Assembly (NCBI GenBank): GCA_945787715.1
Contig: CALZJE010000038.1
Span: 1 to 33,342 of the forward strand
DNA length: 33,342 bases
From: an uncultured Ectothiorhodospiraceae bacterium
GTDB taxonomy: Bacteria > Pseudomonadota > Gammaproteobacteria > S012-40
Reading direction: 5' to 3'
Below the pieces are notes generated by a model. The model had not been told where the DNA came from, searched no databases, and saw nothing but the letters and a program-made list of their open reading frames with translations. Position 1 is the stretch's first letter; the number at the start of each line of letters is the position of its first letter. This document shows, piece after piece, positions 26,933 through 33,342 of this stretch. The position numbers and the translations under genes were made by a program.

Positions 26933-28765
26933 ATGTATATATATAGCAAATATCTTACGCCAATTTTATTAACGCTTACTATTGTGACGCTTGCAGGATG
27001 TTCAGATAGTGATAGCGACCCCGATACCGCTTCAATTGTTCCAGGAATAAATCCAGCTTTTGATACAATTACAGAAGTTGCAAGCAGTGCAGCTGCGAGC
27101 GGTACCTACAGTGCTATTGCGTCTACCGAATACTCCTATCAAGATGAGGTTATTACGTTAACAGAGGGGACGGTATCTTCTGGCGGACTATATTTAAAAA
27201 TTACAGGTGATGCCACACTTGACGGAAACCAAAGCAGTTATACGGTTTATACTTTTGCTGCAAATAACGCCAGCTCAGTAGCAGCCAATGAATTAACCAG
27301 TACAGCTGTGCTCAGAGTCGGAAATGGTGATTCTGAAACATTTGATGCGGCAATTGCCAGTGTAGCAACGAGCACAGGTTTAAGTAGCAGCGATATCACA
27401 TCAGCAACAAAAGCAGATGATCGAGAGGAAGAGCTAACGCAACTAATGCGTACACTAGCACCTTATTTTAGAGATGGCGCTGCCATACCAGGCACAACAA
27501 ATCCCACAAACATAGCTCTCGTTGAAGCACATGATTTGGAGAATATAGCCCTCGGCGCTCACGCTTACGATAATTGGTTGAAGGTGTGTTCAGCACAAGA
27601 TTGTTCAGACAAACCCAGTACACCAGATGAAATAAAAGTGTCACAGTCTGATGAAAGCACAGTCGAATATGATGAATTTGTACGCTGCTCATCTTGCCAT
27701 GGTTGGGATATGTTGGGAGAAAAAGGGGGGTTTGCTTTTCGTAGTCGCTCTCAAGATGGAGAATACATCAGTCGTCCAGATTCCGGAAGTGCCGGCACAA
27801 GTGAAAGCAGAGATATTTCAGCAGGCGGTGTTGAAACGGATGACATAATAAATGCCGGATCGACAAACCGCTATGCAAACAATCCCACTGCTACTCCTTT
27901 CGTCGCAGAAATAATATCTGCCGAAGATTGGAATGCCGTGTTAAACGTAGAGGGCACAAATATTAAAAAGAGCGATGAGCATCCAAATTTCGACTCAAGC
28001 GCTGATGGTCGCATAAACTCAGTTGCGCCCAGCAATGAAGTTATAGAGGCGCTAACAGCATTTCTAAACTATGAAGATGCCAAATGGAGTAAGGTATTTG
28101 AGTCTATTGAACCAGACACCAATTCAGAAACGATAGACCATACTTTAGTCTCAACAGCAAACTCCGCTCGCGGCGCGCAATATTATGCGACTTATTGTTT
28201 TCGTTGCCATGGCGCGCCGAACAATTCTGGCCCAAATCTTTTAAACGGCTTTAGTTCAACAGTAACCGGCAATTTTGCAACTTATTTGAATTCAGAAGGG
28301 AACCATAGCAGGTTAAGGTTTAGAGCGCAGTGGGGTAAAGCAGGCTCAGCCATGACGCGCACCAGATTGGGTGATCCTACATCCGCAGATGTTGCAGATC
28401 TTATGGCTTTTTTGCAGGGCGTTAATTTAGGCGATATCACTGAAGGAACGGGTTTTTCCCACTTGGGTGACGTTACAGCGGGTAACACTATGTATGACAA
28501 CATTTGCGCCAACTGCCATAAAGCTAAAGTTTATGACACTACTAGCAAGTTTTTTGATCTTGATACAGGGGAATCTGTAACTGAACCTGACGAAGATTCA
28601 GTCGAAGCACCCGATCTCACTGCGAGACATTTTCGGATGCAAAAAGACTTGGGTGATCTCAGCGATATTATGGGCAGAGCCCCTAAACTGACACAACAAG
28701 AAATTAATGACCTTGCAGCGTTTTTATCATCTCCGTTGGTAGATGAAGCATCTGAGTCACTTTAG
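26933..28765 (+). CDS. triheme c-type cytochrome lipoprotein
   Basis: 610 residues. A lipobox TLAGC puts the lipidated Cys at 23, followed by SDSDSDPD; no inner-membrane retention signal is evident, so it is probably outer-membrane. Residues 30-170 are Ser/Thr/Ala-rich and beta-like without heme. Three CXXCH motifs follow: C252 (CSSCH), C422 (CFRCH) and C525 (CANCH). The last two lie in monoheme cytochrome c folds with closing helices (ADVADLMAFLQG, INDLAAFLSS). The first has CSSCHGWDMLGEKG, typical of a class I fold. There is no MtrC/OmcA-like decaheme pattern, so this is a distinct electron carrier. Its place at the head of the conduit cluster suggests it is an outer-membrane partner. A strong ribosome site precedes ATG 26933. 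Confidence 0.87.
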   Translation: MYIYSKYLTPILLTLTIVTLAGCSDSDSDPDTASIVPGINPAFDTITEVASSAAASGTYSAIASTEYSYQDEVITLTEGTVSSGGLYLKITGDATLDGNQSSYTVYTFAANNASSVAANELTSTAVLRVGNGDSETFDAAIASVATSTGLSSSDITSATKADDREEELTQLMRTLAPYFRDGAAIPGTTNPTNIALVEAHDLENIALGAHAYDNWLKVCSAQDCSDKPSTPDEIKVSQSDESTVEYDEFVRCSSCHGWDMLGEKGGFAFRSRSQDGEYISRPDSGSAGTSESRDISAGGVETDDIINAGSTNRYANNPTATPFVAEIISAEDWNAVLNVEGTNIKKSDEHPNFDSSADGRINSVAPSNEVIEALTAFLNYEDAKWSKVFESIEPDTNSETIDHTLVSTANSARGAQYYATYCFRCHGAPNNSGPNLLNGFSSTVTGNFATYLNSEGNHSRLRFRAQWGKAGSAMTRTRLGDPTSADVADLMAFLQGVNLGDITEGTGFSHLGDVTAGNTMYDNICANCHKAKVYDTTSKFFDLDTGESVTEPDEDSVEAPDLTARHFRMQKDLGDLSDIMGRAPKLTQQEINDLAAFLSSPLVDEASESL

Positions 28766-28842: not shown

Positions 28843-28892
28843 TTCTGTGTTGAAGCCAATCGCGTATTAATCCTGAATGGTTGGGATTAACC

Positions 28893-29453
28893 ATGAGCAA
28901 TCATTCGTATCCTTCTTTCTATGGAAAAACGTTAATAACGTTTATCGTAGCTGCTTCGGTAGTTGGTCTGTTTTTAGTAGGCAGCGCGAATTATGTGCTT
29001 GAATCCACCAATGACATGGAATTTTGCATTTCCTGCCATTCCATGCAAACAAACTACGAGGAATATAAAGAGACAATACATTTTAAAAATGCCTCAGGTG
29101 TTCAAGCAACTTGCGCTGACTGCCATGTCCCCAAGCCACTCGGGCCGAAGTTATTGGCGAAATTATTGGCCGCCAAGGATGTCATGCATGAAATCCTTGG
29201 AACTATCGACAGTAAAGAAAAATTTGAAAAGCATCGTTGGTCTATGGCTAATGCTGTTTGGCAGAAAATGAAAGCCAATGACTCGCGAGAGTGTCGCACC
29301 TGCCACACAACGGCCGCAATGGATTTTAGTGAGCAAGACAAAACTGCCGCAAAAAAACATAAAAAGGCAACAGAGAATGGCAAAACCTGCATAGATTGCC
29401 ATCGAGGTATTGCGCATGAGGAGCCTGATGAGCCAGATGAGGAAATGCATTAA
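28893..29453 (+). CDS. NapC/NirT/CymA-like tetraheme quinol dehydrogenase
   Basis: 186 residues from ATG 28893; TTG 28881 is an alternative. One N-terminal membrane anchor (about 12-35, LITFIVAASVVGLFLVG) is followed by a periplasmic domain with four CXXCH at C45 (CISCHSM), C74 (CADCH), C134 (CRTCH) and C166 (CIDCH). These proteins take electrons from the membrane quinol pool and pass them to periplasmic cytochromes; Shewanella CymA feeds MtrA this way. The tail is very acidic (EEPDEPDEEMH). Its place before an MtrA/MtrB pair suggests the same job, but the direction of flow could be reversed. Confidence 0.92.
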   Translation: MSNHSYPSFYGKTLITFIVAASVVGLFLVGSANYVLESTNDMEFCISCHSMQTNYEEYKETIHFKNASGVQATCADCHVPKPLGPKLLAKLLAAKDVMHEILGTIDSKEKFEKHRWSMANAVWQKMKANDSRECRTCHTTAAMDFSEQDKTAAKKHKKATENGKTCIDCHRGIAHEEPDEPDEEMH

Positions 29454-29493: not shown

Positions 29494-30147
29494 ATGATGT
29501 ATAAGCAAGTCATCATTTTCACTTTGCTCGCAGTTTTTTTAAATCCACTTTCTGCGAATGCAACAAGTGCTGGAGAATTACTTGCCCTCACTTGTTCGAG
29601 CTGTCATGGCACGAAAGGAGTTTCACACGGCCCAGCGACACCCAGCATAGCTGGATTATCAAAAAATTATATTATTGCCTCCATGTTATCCTACAAACAT
29701 ATCGACAACTTAGACCATGCCCAAGATATTGTTGATGAAAGGAAAAATCTGGACGACGTAGTCATACTCAAACGTTCCGCAACAATCATGACACGTATTG
29801 CAAAAGCCTATAGTATCGAAGAAATCGAAAAACTAGCGGATTACTTTAGCTCACAAAAAATCACACTTGCAGTGCAAGACTCTGACAAGGATCAAGCAAA
29901 AAAAGGCGAAAAGCTCCATGATAGATATTGCGAAAAATGTCATGAAGAAGGCGGCATAAAGCCAGATGATGATGTTGGATTACTGGCAGGGCAATGGCAA
30001 GATTATTTGCGCAACAGTATGCATGATTTTCGTAACAGTGATCGTGAAATGCCAAAAAAAATGCGAAATAAAATTGATAAGATGGTGAAAAAGAAAGGTG
30101 CAAACTCCATTGAGGCGTTAATTCAATATTACGCCAGCCAGAAATAA
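29494..30147 (+). CDS. diheme cytochrome c, FccA-like
   Basis: 217 residues. Signal peptide 1-24 (cleavage near ANA-TS). Heme motifs are C34 (CSSCH) and C146 (CEKCH). The second half closely follows the cytochrome subunit of flavocytochrome c sulfide dehydrogenase: KLHDRYCEKCHEEGG, LAGQWQDYLRNSMHDF, EMPKKM and a closing ALIQYYASQK. Possible axial Met residues are M99 (SATIMTRIAKAYS) and M186. Compared with FccA as I recall it, about 20 extra residues lie near 66-94. It sits 28 bp before an FccB-like gene, as in fccAB operons. AAGGA precedes the ATG. The family call is good. A cytochrome c4 reading is the main alternative, but the C-terminal block favours FccA. Confidence 0.85.
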   Translation: MMYKQVIIFTLLAVFLNPLSANATSAGELLALTCSSCHGTKGVSHGPATPSIAGLSKNYIIASMLSYKHIDNLDHAQDIVDERKNLDDVVILKRSATIMTRIAKAYSIEEIEKLADYFSSQKITLAVQDSDKDQAKKGEKLHDRYCEKCHEEGGIKPDDDVGLLAGQWQDYLRNSMHDFRNSDREMPKKMRNKIDKMVKKKGANSIEALIQYYASQK

Positions 30148-30175: not shown

Positions 30176-31435
30176 ATGGATAAAATCGACAGACGACGAT
30201 TTTTAAAACTTGCTGGCTTTTCGCTAGCAAGTAGCGCATTATTTTTTTCGACTAAAGCGTTTGCTGATTCACAACGAATAGTTATAGTTGGCGGTGGCAT
30301 TGCAGGAACTACAGCAGCAATTTACCTTAAGACACTAGTGCCAAACCTTTCCATCACGTTGATTGAAAAAAATACGAAATATACCGCAGGCATCATGAGC
30401 AATGAAGTTATTGCAGGTCTACGTGATATTAGCAGCATTACATTTGGCTATGAGAATTTGAATAAAATAAATATCAAGCTAATCAATGACGCTGCGGTAG
30501 AAATTGACACCAATGATCAATTGATTCATGGAAAAAAAGATAAGTACAAATATGATCGCTTGATACTAGCACCGGGAATTAGTCTCGACTGGCAATCTAT
30601 TCAAGGCATCGATAATGCTAAAAATATTACAGGCTGGCAACGCGGCGTCGACGTTACAACGCTTAAAGAGCAAATCACAAATATAAAGAATGGCGGTAAC
30701 ATTCTTATCAGTATTCCTAAAGGGCCAATAAGTGGTCCTGCTGCACCTTATGAGAGAGCTAGCTTAATTGCTCATTACCTAAAGTCACAAAAATCGAAAT
30801 CTAAACTCTTCATATTAGATGGCAATAGCCCATCTGAACAAACTGCTCTGTTTAAATCGATTTGGTCTCAAAAGTATAAAGATCTTATTGAACTACAGAC
30901 AAATACTACCACTGAAGGTGTTGATGTGGGCAATAAAACAATAATCACCAATCAAGGAAAAATAAAAGGCGAAGTTATCAATATAATACCAGCACAACGA
31001 GCAAATTTAATTGCTCAGCAAGCAGCGCTAACAGATAAAGATGGTTGGTGTCCGGTTGATCAGCGTTCATTTTCTTCAACCAAAGCAGATAATGTTCATA
31101 TTCTTGGCGACGCTATCAGCCCGGCATTAGGCTTAAGAAAAACAGCTCAATGCGCCAACTCACAAGCAAAACATTGTGCGCTAGCAATAGCTGCTACAAT
31201 AACTAACAATGAAACATATAAACGGAGTATGCCATTGATTGATGTGGAATACAGTATCATTGCCCCGTCTTATGCGATATCCACCGTGCAAATACACAAA
31301 CAAGCCAGGGAGGGTTTGAGATATCAACAGTTAGATACCCATGTAAAAGATGTAAAAGTCGCTGATAAAGCGCATAGAGAATATGGCTATGCAGTAAGTT
31401 GGTTTAATAATATTACTCAGGAAATATTCGCTTAA
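30176..31435 (+). CDS. FccB-like flavoprotein lacking sulfide-dehydrogenase cysteines
   Basis: 419 residues. A Tat signal (DRRRFLKLAGF, then a hydrophobic stretch to AFA) exports it folded with FAD. FccB-family motifs are RIVIVGGGIAGTTAAIYLK (FAD ADP loop), MSNEVIAG, LAPGISLDW, PYERASLIAHYLKSQKSKSK, INIIPAQRANLIAQQAALTD, GWCPVD, HILGDA, YSIIAPSYAIS and the C-terminal YAVSWFNNITQEIFA. In Allochromatium vinosum FccB, Cys42 holds FAD covalently and Cys161-Cys337 form the redox disulfide. Here those places read Ala/Gly (71-72), Gly187 and Glu358. Only C292, C326 and C334 remain. FAD must bind non-covalently, and sulfide chemistry through the disulfide is not possible as known. It probably pairs with the diheme protein before it. 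Substrate unknown. Confidence 0.88.
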   Translation: MDKIDRRRFLKLAGFSLASSALFFSTKAFADSQRIVIVGGGIAGTTAAIYLKTLVPNLSITLIEKNTKYTAGIMSNEVIAGLRDISSITFGYENLNKINIKLINDAAVEIDTNDQLIHGKKDKYKYDRLILAPGISLDWQSIQGIDNAKNITGWQRGVDVTTLKEQITNIKNGGNILISIPKGPISGPAAPYERASLIAHYLKSQKSKSKLFILDGNSPSEQTALFKSIWSQKYKDLIELQTNTTTEGVDVGNKTIITNQGKIKGEVINIIPAQRANLIAQQAALTDKDGWCPVDQRSFSSTKADNVHILGDAISPALGLRKTAQCANSQAKHCALAIAATITNNETYKRSMPLIDVEYSIIAPSYAISTVQIHKQAREGLRYQQLDTHVKDVKVADKAHREYGYAVSWFNNITQEIFA

Positions 31436-31448
31436 TAAGCTATCAGCC

Positions 31449-32420
31449 ATGCGCATACGACACGACTTCTTTATTACAATATTTTTTCTTGCACTTTGCT
31501 CAAGTTCATCTGTTATCGCAGAGGAGGAAATAGACACAGATTGGCGTAAACAAATCAATGCGCCTTATACAGATAAAGGAGCAGACCGCTGTTTAAAATG
31601 TCATGATGAAGATAATGAATATCCTGTCATGCCTTTGTTCAACAACAAGCACGGCCAATTCGCTAATCCAAACTCGCCAATGTCAGGTAAACAATGTGAG
31701 TCCTGTCATGGTCCTGGTGGGCTACACATAAAGCGTCCGAAGCGCGGTGAAAAACGTGCACCTATAATGAATTTCGGAAACAAGTCCTCCGCACCTGCTG
31801 CGGAGCAAAACAAAAAATGTTTACAATGCCATCAAACCTACGCAAGAATCGGATGGCAAGGTAGTCCTCACGAAAAGAATGGTCTTGCTTGTGCAAATTG
31901 CCATACGATTCATGTTAAAAAAGACTATGTTTTTGATAAACGCAGTCAGGTAAAAATATGTTATCGCTGCCACAAAAAACAGCGCAGTGAATTTCTAAAA
32001 CCCTACGTTCACCCTGTGCGATTTGGGTTGCTTAGCTGTACCGATTGTCATAACACCCATGATTCATTAGCAGATAATTTGTTAAATACGCCAAGTGTTA
32101 ACGAAACTTGTTTTCAATGCCATGCAGAAAAGCGCGGCCCTTATGTATGGGAACATGCGCCGGCTGCAGAAAATTGCGCCCTCTGCCACAAAGCACACGG
32201 CTCTAATCATCCTGCGTTGTTAAAACGACGACCACCGTTGCTGTGCCAACAATGTCATATGCAGCGCAACAATCATGCTAATGTACTTTACAATGATGCT
32301 GGCTTACCTGATGGTAGTGTGAAGGATAGAGGTAACTTTATGTTAGCTAAAGGATGTTTAAACTGCCACTCTCGTGTGCATGGTTCTAATCATCCTTCGG
32401 GTGTAAAACTAATGAGATAA
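31449..32420 (+). CDS. decaheme c-type cytochrome, MtrA/DmsE/PioA family
   Basis: 323 residues; signal peptide 1-24 (SSSVIA-EE). Ten CXXCH motifs start at C48, 83, 124, 148, 171, 197, 221, 243, 266 and 303. CESCHGPGGLH, CHTIH and repeated CHKAHGSNHP are typical of the DmsE/MtrA group. These rod-like periplasmic proteins insert into the MtrB barrel and carry electrons across the outer membrane. The start is ATG 31449, 13 bp after the flavoprotein. The stop codon shares one base with the possible ATG of the barrel gene, so the two are translationally coupled. Whether electrons go outward (respiration) or inward (iron or sulfur oxidation) cannot be read from it. Confidence 0.95.
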   Translation: MRIRHDFFITIFFLALCSSSSVIAEEEIDTDWRKQINAPYTDKGADRCLKCHDEDNEYPVMPLFNNKHGQFANPNSPMSGKQCESCHGPGGLHIKRPKRGEKRAPIMNFGNKSSAPAAEQNKKCLQCHQTYARIGWQGSPHEKNGLACANCHTIHVKKDYVFDKRSQVKICYRCHKKQRSEFLKPYVHPVRFGLLSCTDCHNTHDSLADNLLNTPSVNETCFQCHAEKRGPYVWEHAPAAENCALCHKAHGSNHPALLKRRPPLLCQQCHMQRNNHANVLYNDAGLPDGSVKDRGNFMLAKGCLNCHSRVHGSNHPSGVKLMR

Positions 32421-33342
32421 TGGGTAAACTGCTTATGCCTAACGCTTTTCATTTTCTCAGAAATATTTTATACAGCACAATATTTATTGCGTTCAGCATG
32501 TCTGTTTGTTTTGCAAATGAAGCGGAGGAATCCGGCATTGAACGTTGTAACTTTTGTCCAGATCTAGAGCCATATCTTGCCTCAATTGACTTGGGCTTTG
32601 CTTATGTAAGTGATGACAGTGCTAAATACAACGAATTTCGTGGTTGGGATCAAAAAGGCCTTATGCCAGTTTTGGATATTGAGCTAAGTTTATTGAACGA
32701 AGATGCTGATTACCTTTCGATAACAGCGTCCAATTTAGCACTTGGTTCGAGAGATATTTCCTTCGAAGGCGGTCAACAAGGTAATTATCGACTTGATTTT
32801 GATTATCAAGAAATAACACATTTACAACAAACGAAAACTAAGACACCTTATCTTGGAGTAGGAACTGATACATTAACGTTGCAGAGTGATTGGCAATCAG
32901 CTGATGACGTTAGCCAGCTTTCTGATCTTGAAGAGAACTTAAGCCCCTTCGATATCAAACAGAAAAGAAAGAGAATCAGTGCTGAAATAAGTAAGTCTTT
33001 AAATAAATCCTGGCAAACCAAGTTGGGATTCCAGCAAGAAACAAAAAAAGGAGTTGGCACCACTGGCGCAGCATTTGGCAGCTCGTACCTTAATGCTATG
33101 TCAGTAATTTTACCCGAGCCGATTGATTACGTAACACGTCAACTGAGTCTTTCTCTAAATTATTCAGGTAGCAAAATACAAACTGAATTAGGTTACCATA
33201 GTTCATTTTTTTATAATGAAAATGATTACTTAAAGTGGCAAAATGCTTTTTCCAATATTATTAATAATCCCTCTCTCGAACCGGTAGATGGTCAAATGGC
33301 TTTGCCGCCAGATAATCAACATCATCAACTCTATGCACGCCT
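32420..33342 (+). CDS. MtrB/PioB-family outer membrane barrel, 5' part
   Basis: The frame runs open from ATG 32420 (TAATG overlap with the decaheme stop) or ATG 32435 to the right edge; about 307 residues are visible of about 650-750. The signal peptide (FIAFSMSVCFA-NE) is followed by an early CXXC pair (ERCNFCPDLEPY), a hallmark of MtrB-type proteins in Shewanella. Then come alternating beta strands: ASIDLGFAYVSDD, the FRGWDQKGLMPVLDIELSL stretch, YRLDFDYQEI, and ISAEISKSLNKSWQTKLGFQQETKKG with the conserved charged GFQQETKKG turn. It would form the porin sheath around the decaheme cytochrome. The end of the gene and any MtrC-type surface cytochrome lie beyond the window. Confidence 0.9.
   Translation, partial: MGKLLMPNAFHFLRNILYSTIFIAFSMSVCFANEAEESGIERCNFCPDLEPYLASIDLGFAYVSDDSAKYNEFRGWDQKGLMPVLDIELSLLNEDADYLSITASNLALGSRDISFEGGQQGNYRLDFDYQEITHLQQTKTKTPYLGVGTDTLTLQSDWQSADDVSQLSDLEENLSPFDIKQKRKRISAEISKSLNKSWQTKLGFQQETKKGVGTTGAAFGSSYLNAMSVILPEPIDYVTRQLSLSLNYSGSKIQTELGYHSSFFYNENDYLKWQNAFSNIINNPSLEPVDGQMALPPDNQHHQLYAR

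Follow-up and report, generated by a model that had tools for sequence, protein, structure and literature searches.

A flavocytochrome c sulfide dehydrogenase homologue without its catalytic cysteines is encoded in a predicted electron conduit cluster of an uncultured Ectothiorhodospiraceae bacterium

Flavins are the usual device for coupling two-electron chemistry to one-electron hemes and in flavocytochrome c sulfide dehydrogenase (FCSD, FccAB) the flavin terminates the heme path and does not lie midway along it. In the known mechanism sulfide reacts at a disulfide next to this flavin and the electrons travel through FAD to the FccA hemes (PMC12010331). In Shewanella a fumarate reductase, also named FccA, takes electrons from CymA and hands them to outer-membrane reductases, and this periplasmic flavocytochrome both ferries electrons from CymA to MtrA and reduces a substrate (PMC4484225). 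Conduits of the Mtr/Dms type (MtrCAB, DmsEF, PioAB) carry a decaheme cytochrome of the DmsE/MtrA family, an MtrB/PioB porin and a quinol cytochrome of the NapC/CymA type. Here we describe a locus that shares features with each of these systems.

The window analysed, a whole stretch of 33,342 nucleotides from an uncultured Ectothiorhodospiraceae bacterium, contains near its end a forward-strand cluster in which an FccB-like flavoprotein gene lies among heme-protein genes, as the original prediction had described. The first gene (26933-28765) encodes a triheme c-type lipoprotein with a lipobox LAGC followed by Ser, a PF00034 domain and three CxxCH motifs, and its product is a candidate surface or outer-membrane cytochrome. 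It is followed by a membrane-anchored tetraheme cytochrome of the NapC/NirT (CymA) type (28881-29453; PF03264, 5e-69), a diheme FccA (29494-30147), the FccB-like flavoprotein (30176-31435), a decaheme cytochrome of the DmsE/MtrA family (31449-32420; TIGR03508, 7e-87, 291 bits against a cut-off of 192) and the N-terminal part of an MtrB/PioB outer-membrane beta-barrel (32420-33342; PF11854, 4e-51, 174.8 bits against a cut-off of 23). The mtrB gene is cut by the contig end and its truncated ORF stays below the NCBIfam cut-off while passing that of Pfam PF11854, and the remaining part is matched on another contig of the genome (C158:45-1157) where unrelated genes come next.

Searching 13 genomes of the same family revealed one close relative, in a different genus (G003), with the same six genes in the same order, all complete and flanked on both sides by unrelated genes. 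Identity between the two clusters is highest for NapC (65%) and DmsE (61%), followed by FccA (46%), the FccB-like protein and the lipoprotein (41% each) and MtrB (36%). This FccB is absent from the remaining family members, and the only other DmsE in the family (G005) lies in an MtrB cluster without one. In common with conduits of the Mtr/Dms type the window cluster has the decaheme cytochrome, the porin and the quinol cytochrome, but it differs from them in having a triheme lipoprotein and no MtrC-type decaheme, and in including a flavocytochrome of the FccAB type. No extracellular multiheme cytochrome of the MtrC/OmcA type was found in the G003 cluster, which is complete, or in the genes that follow MtrB in the window genome. 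The six-gene set is predicted to form an electron conduit that links the quinone pool of the inner membrane with the cell surface. A triheme lipoprotein 37% identical to that of the window was also seen at the end of a contig from another family (L062/L063, G104:C72:3227-5179).

Among solved structures the diheme protein matched the heme subunits of FCSD (3vrd_A 1e-38, 1fcd_C 1e-37) far better than cytochrome c4 (8e-10). Of the 36 columns invariant in FccA, 33 are retained in both clusters, including both CxxCH motifs, Met99 and Met190, and judged by these residues the protein is a well conserved FccA, an identification that the original prediction did not make. It also resembles PdsA, which like the Shewanella fumarate reductase is one of the periplasmic shuttles of Shewanella and Vibrio. 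These work between a donor of the CymA type and an acceptor of the MtrA type, the position that is also proposed here for the FccAB pair. Its score against the PdsA family model (NCBIfam NF049874) is however only 113 bits with a cut-off of 330, and FccA of FCSD is the better fit among solved structures. The Shewanella fumarate reductase, for its part, is a flavocytochrome unrelated to the FccAB of the window.

The neighbouring gene at 30176-31435 is an intact ORF of 419 aa starting with ATG, with a twin-arginine (Tat) signal, DRRRFLKLAG, at the N-terminus of its product followed by an FAD-binding fold. Pfam assigns the product to FCSD_central (PF21706, 2.5e-30) and to the FCSD flavin-binding domain (PF09242, 1.2e-6), and the best phmmer matches among solved structures are the FCSD flavoproteins 3vrd_B (5e-75), 5n1t_A and 1fcd_A (range 5e-75 to 4e-70), with identities of about 38-40% across residues 33-418 (2-418 for 5n1t). 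On this evidence it is a true FccB homologue. It shares with FCSD the sequence family and fold, the adjoining diheme FccA, the Tat signal and the flavin motifs (G39, G41, G44, G134, G311 and D312). Also kept are the active-site glutamate of the PYER segment, Glu193 (codon 30752-30754), which is Glu in all 137 homologues aligned, and Trp409 (codon 31400-31402), the conserved tryptophan close to the flavin in FCSD, which is Trp in 132 of the 137. Where it departs from FCSD is in its linkage to DmsE, MtrB and the triheme lipoprotein and in its cysteines. A model predicted from this one sequence had a mean pLDDT of 31.5 and no usable fold.

Alignment with the 137 FccB homologues bears out the original prediction that the FAD-attaching cysteine and both cysteines of the redox disulfide have been lost. 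Gly72 (codon 30389-30391) aligns with the FAD-attaching cysteine, Gly187 (30734-30736) with the first disulfide cysteine and Glu358 (31247-31249) with the second. The "Ala/Gly" originally given for the covalent FAD site is thus Gly72. In the G003 relative the three positions are occupied by Ala, Gly and Glu.

In order to see how unusual these losses are we extended the comparison to 186 other FccB homologues, made up of the 137 from a sample of the class and from the loci and a further 49 from a sample of the phylum, a set that does not take in about a dozen of the higher-scoring matches from one search and roughly fifty intermediate-scoring ones from another. The first disulfide cysteine is kept in 136/137 and 49/49 of these, the protein of G003 being the sole exception, and its loss is more than a chance substitution by this comparison. 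The second is absent in three of the 186 (G003, L154 and L168). The FAD-attaching cysteine on the other hand is absent in 26, mostly with Gly in its place and with the disulfide nearly always intact (L180-L182, L184, L186, L189, L190, L193, L201, L203 and others show Gly together with the full disulfide). That loss is therefore ordinary by itself and the disulfide loss is the exceptional part, which does not agree with the equal weight that the original prediction implied for all three. Non-covalent FAD may indeed be ordinary in the FccB family and many FCSDs perhaps carry no covalent FAD.

L154 (G021:C121:4287-5537) and L168 (G283:C201:5704-6774) are FccB paralogues of one other family in which the FAD-attaching cysteine and the second disulfide cysteine (Val or Leu) are gone and the first is retained, a separate partial loss. 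Both are located downstream of an argH-like gene, and their genomes carry further FccB copies. Repeat units resembling a CRISPR array were seen at the end of the contig carrying L168 (L177, G283:C201:11245-11820). When 398 genomes of the phylum were scanned with a DNA pattern encoding the Cys-less motif GPxAP[YF]ER no second FccB came to light, and one scan of genome contigs returned a distant relative and nothing else. In the open-licence literature, seen mostly as titles and abstracts, we found neither a Cys-less FccB nor an FccAB in an MtrAB cluster described.

G003, the only close relative found, has the conduit as well as the cysteine loss. An open reading frame together with the same losses and the same gene order in a second genus rules out a pseudogene or a sequencing error. 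When columns were ranked by their conservation in 134 disulfide-bearing FccBs, identity between the two Cys-less proteins fell from 0.74 through 0.51 and 0.41 to 0.18 as conservation fell, a gradient which matches that of the disulfide-bearing proteins and which a decaying gene would not show. Clean replacement, as had been proposed originally, is thus the better description, the relative being 41% identical with matching substitutions at the disulfide positions. Among 53 columns at least 95% conserved in the 134 proteins, 34 are kept in both Cys-less proteins and eight are lost in both (A153, R186, C187, P189, P321, S323, N356 and C358), five of them with an identical new residue (S186, G187, T323, D356 and E358). 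Seven of the eight fall in three segments around the disulfide site, a grouping made post hoc, and the clustering gives p = 0.00015 with windows picked afterwards, 0.010 with fixed windows and 0.08 when the cysteine columns are excluded, so that we regard the apparent crowding of losses at the disulfide pocket as no more than suggestive.

In a phylogenetic tree the two Cys-less proteins, the only two sequences by which the group is defined, form one group (support 100/99) within the FCSDs that have a diheme FccA (99/98), indicating that the cysteine loss arose within true sulfide dehydrogenases. The pair sits on a stem of 1.48 with tips of 1.54 and 2.0, the median being 0.33, and these branches are long enough to leave its exact position uncertain and possibly reflect relaxed constraint on part of the protein. 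Loci with the gene order napC-fccA-fccB, the same as that of the window trio, occur in other gammaproteobacteria (L026, L027, L031, L042, L044, L047, L050), but unlike the window locus all seven keep the three cysteines and have no DmsE or MtrB gene in the wider regions read. As disulfide-bearing FCSDs of several other families have a tetraheme gene immediately upstream of fccA-fccB the trio probably predates the cysteine loss, and such loci would be a natural ancestor for the window arrangement. Disulfide-bearing fccA-fccB genes were also seen adjoining an mfd-like gene (L066 and L067 in G056 and G196, L069 in G191), and in G056 and G196 they are preceded both by a tetraheme gene of the NapC type and by divergent ccm-like genes, possibly representing a quinone-linked FCSD.

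With no disulfide the known sulfide chemistry of FCSD is not available to the FccB-like protein, and since that mechanism requires the disulfide we infer, in line with the original prediction, that a label of sulfide dehydrogenase is probably wrong. Membership of the FccB family and the presence of C292 and C334 might suggest that sulfide or polysulfide is still oxidised, by a disulfide-free route or through other cysteines, but this appears very unlikely. C292 is a cysteine in 127 of the 137 homologues and C334 in 95, nearly all of which have the disulfide, making these family residues and not replacements, and the position of C326 is Ala or Ser in most homologues and Ser in G003. A substitute redox pair drawn from C292, C326 or C334, which the original prediction had named as the finding that would count against it, is unlikely from the alignment and is unsupported at the sequence level. 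In addition the same genome carries a separate gene for an SQR-like protein of 436 aa (G000:C26:34776-36083, minus strand) beside an apparent gene for a sigma-54-type regulator, and it may handle sulfide through this protein instead. Use of NAD(P)H, as by the type II NADH dehydrogenases (NDH-2) of the same superfamily, is hardly credible. When the motif GxGxxGxE of their second nucleotide-binding domain is laid by hand on the PYER segment, Glu193 does fall at the position of the catalytic Glu172 (PMC5299459), however the window protein has SGPAAPYE in place of the motif and the GxGxxG part is not restored in either Cys-less form (SGPAAPYE, SGPWAPFE). Moreover a loop in FCSD blocks the NADH site (PMC5299459) and Tat export would take the protein to a compartment without available NADH.

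The loss of the catalytic cysteines, the fast evolution of the FccB-like protein and the better conservation of the key FccA residues would also fit a catalytically dead subunit kept to fold or dock FccA. We consider this unlikely, as the flavin-binding motifs have been preserved, along with Glu193 and Trp409 of the active site, despite a sequence difference of about 60%. A possibility to be taken more seriously, though we lean against it, is that FccAB shuttles electrons between NapC and DmsE with the FAD storing two electrons and no substrate of its own. Shewanella FccA and STC act as such shuttles between CymA and MtrA, but Shewanella FccA showed no interaction with DmsE (PMC4484225). In the window the fccAB genes sit between those of NapC and DmsE and FccA is intact. 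Against this, a flavin at the end of the heme path, as in FCSD, would not be required for a pure relay. Given the usual role of flavins in coupling and the fact that all other redox parts of the conduit are heme, a non-sulfide two-electron role is favoured, with the pure relay close behind. A new substrate and a relay were also the two roles suggested by the original prediction.

The best overall explanation, which we put forward tentatively, is a sulfide-inactive flavocytochrome c that has been recruited to a conduit of the Mtr/Dms type and whose flavin serves non-sulfide two-electron chemistry. In its favour are FccB homology combined with the losses, the conserved cluster, the pairing of conduit and cysteine loss in G003, the well kept FccA and flavin motifs, the napC-fccA-fccB loci as an ancestral form and the Shewanella precedent. 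The core of this explanation, namely that the flavocytochrome is inactive on sulfide and belongs to the conduit, is likely, while the substrate role specifically is a somewhat weaker proposal than the explanation as a whole. NapC in the inner membrane would form the quinone-pool end, FccA and the FccB-like protein would lie in the periplasm, presumably as a complex, and DmsE would be enclosed by the outer-membrane barrel MtrB, while the triheme lipoprotein might form the outer terminus. The FccB-like protein probably retains its FAD without the thioether bond, beside the hemes that homology predicts for FccA. In a pocket lined by Glu193, Glu358 and Trp409 the flavin would switch between two-electron and one-electron chemistry for a non-sulfide compound, electrons being exchanged through FccA with NapC and DmsE in a direction that may run either way.

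It is conceivable, if somewhat doubtful, that a second and unrelated kind of flavocytochrome, derived from FCSD, directly connects a periplasmic substrate with two-electron chemistry to a conduit of the MtrAB type. If true the substrate would either be oxidised and its electrons passed out of the cell, or be reduced by electrons drawn from outside. Genomes and metagenomes are screened for sulfide oxidation with FccB as a marker gene, and organisms with the Cys-less group would be miscounted as sulfide oxidisers although the residues for that chemistry are missing, which inspection of the two cysteines would prevent. More broadly, the locus suggests that a sulfide enzyme has been remodelled as a component of a chain for extracellular electron transfer.
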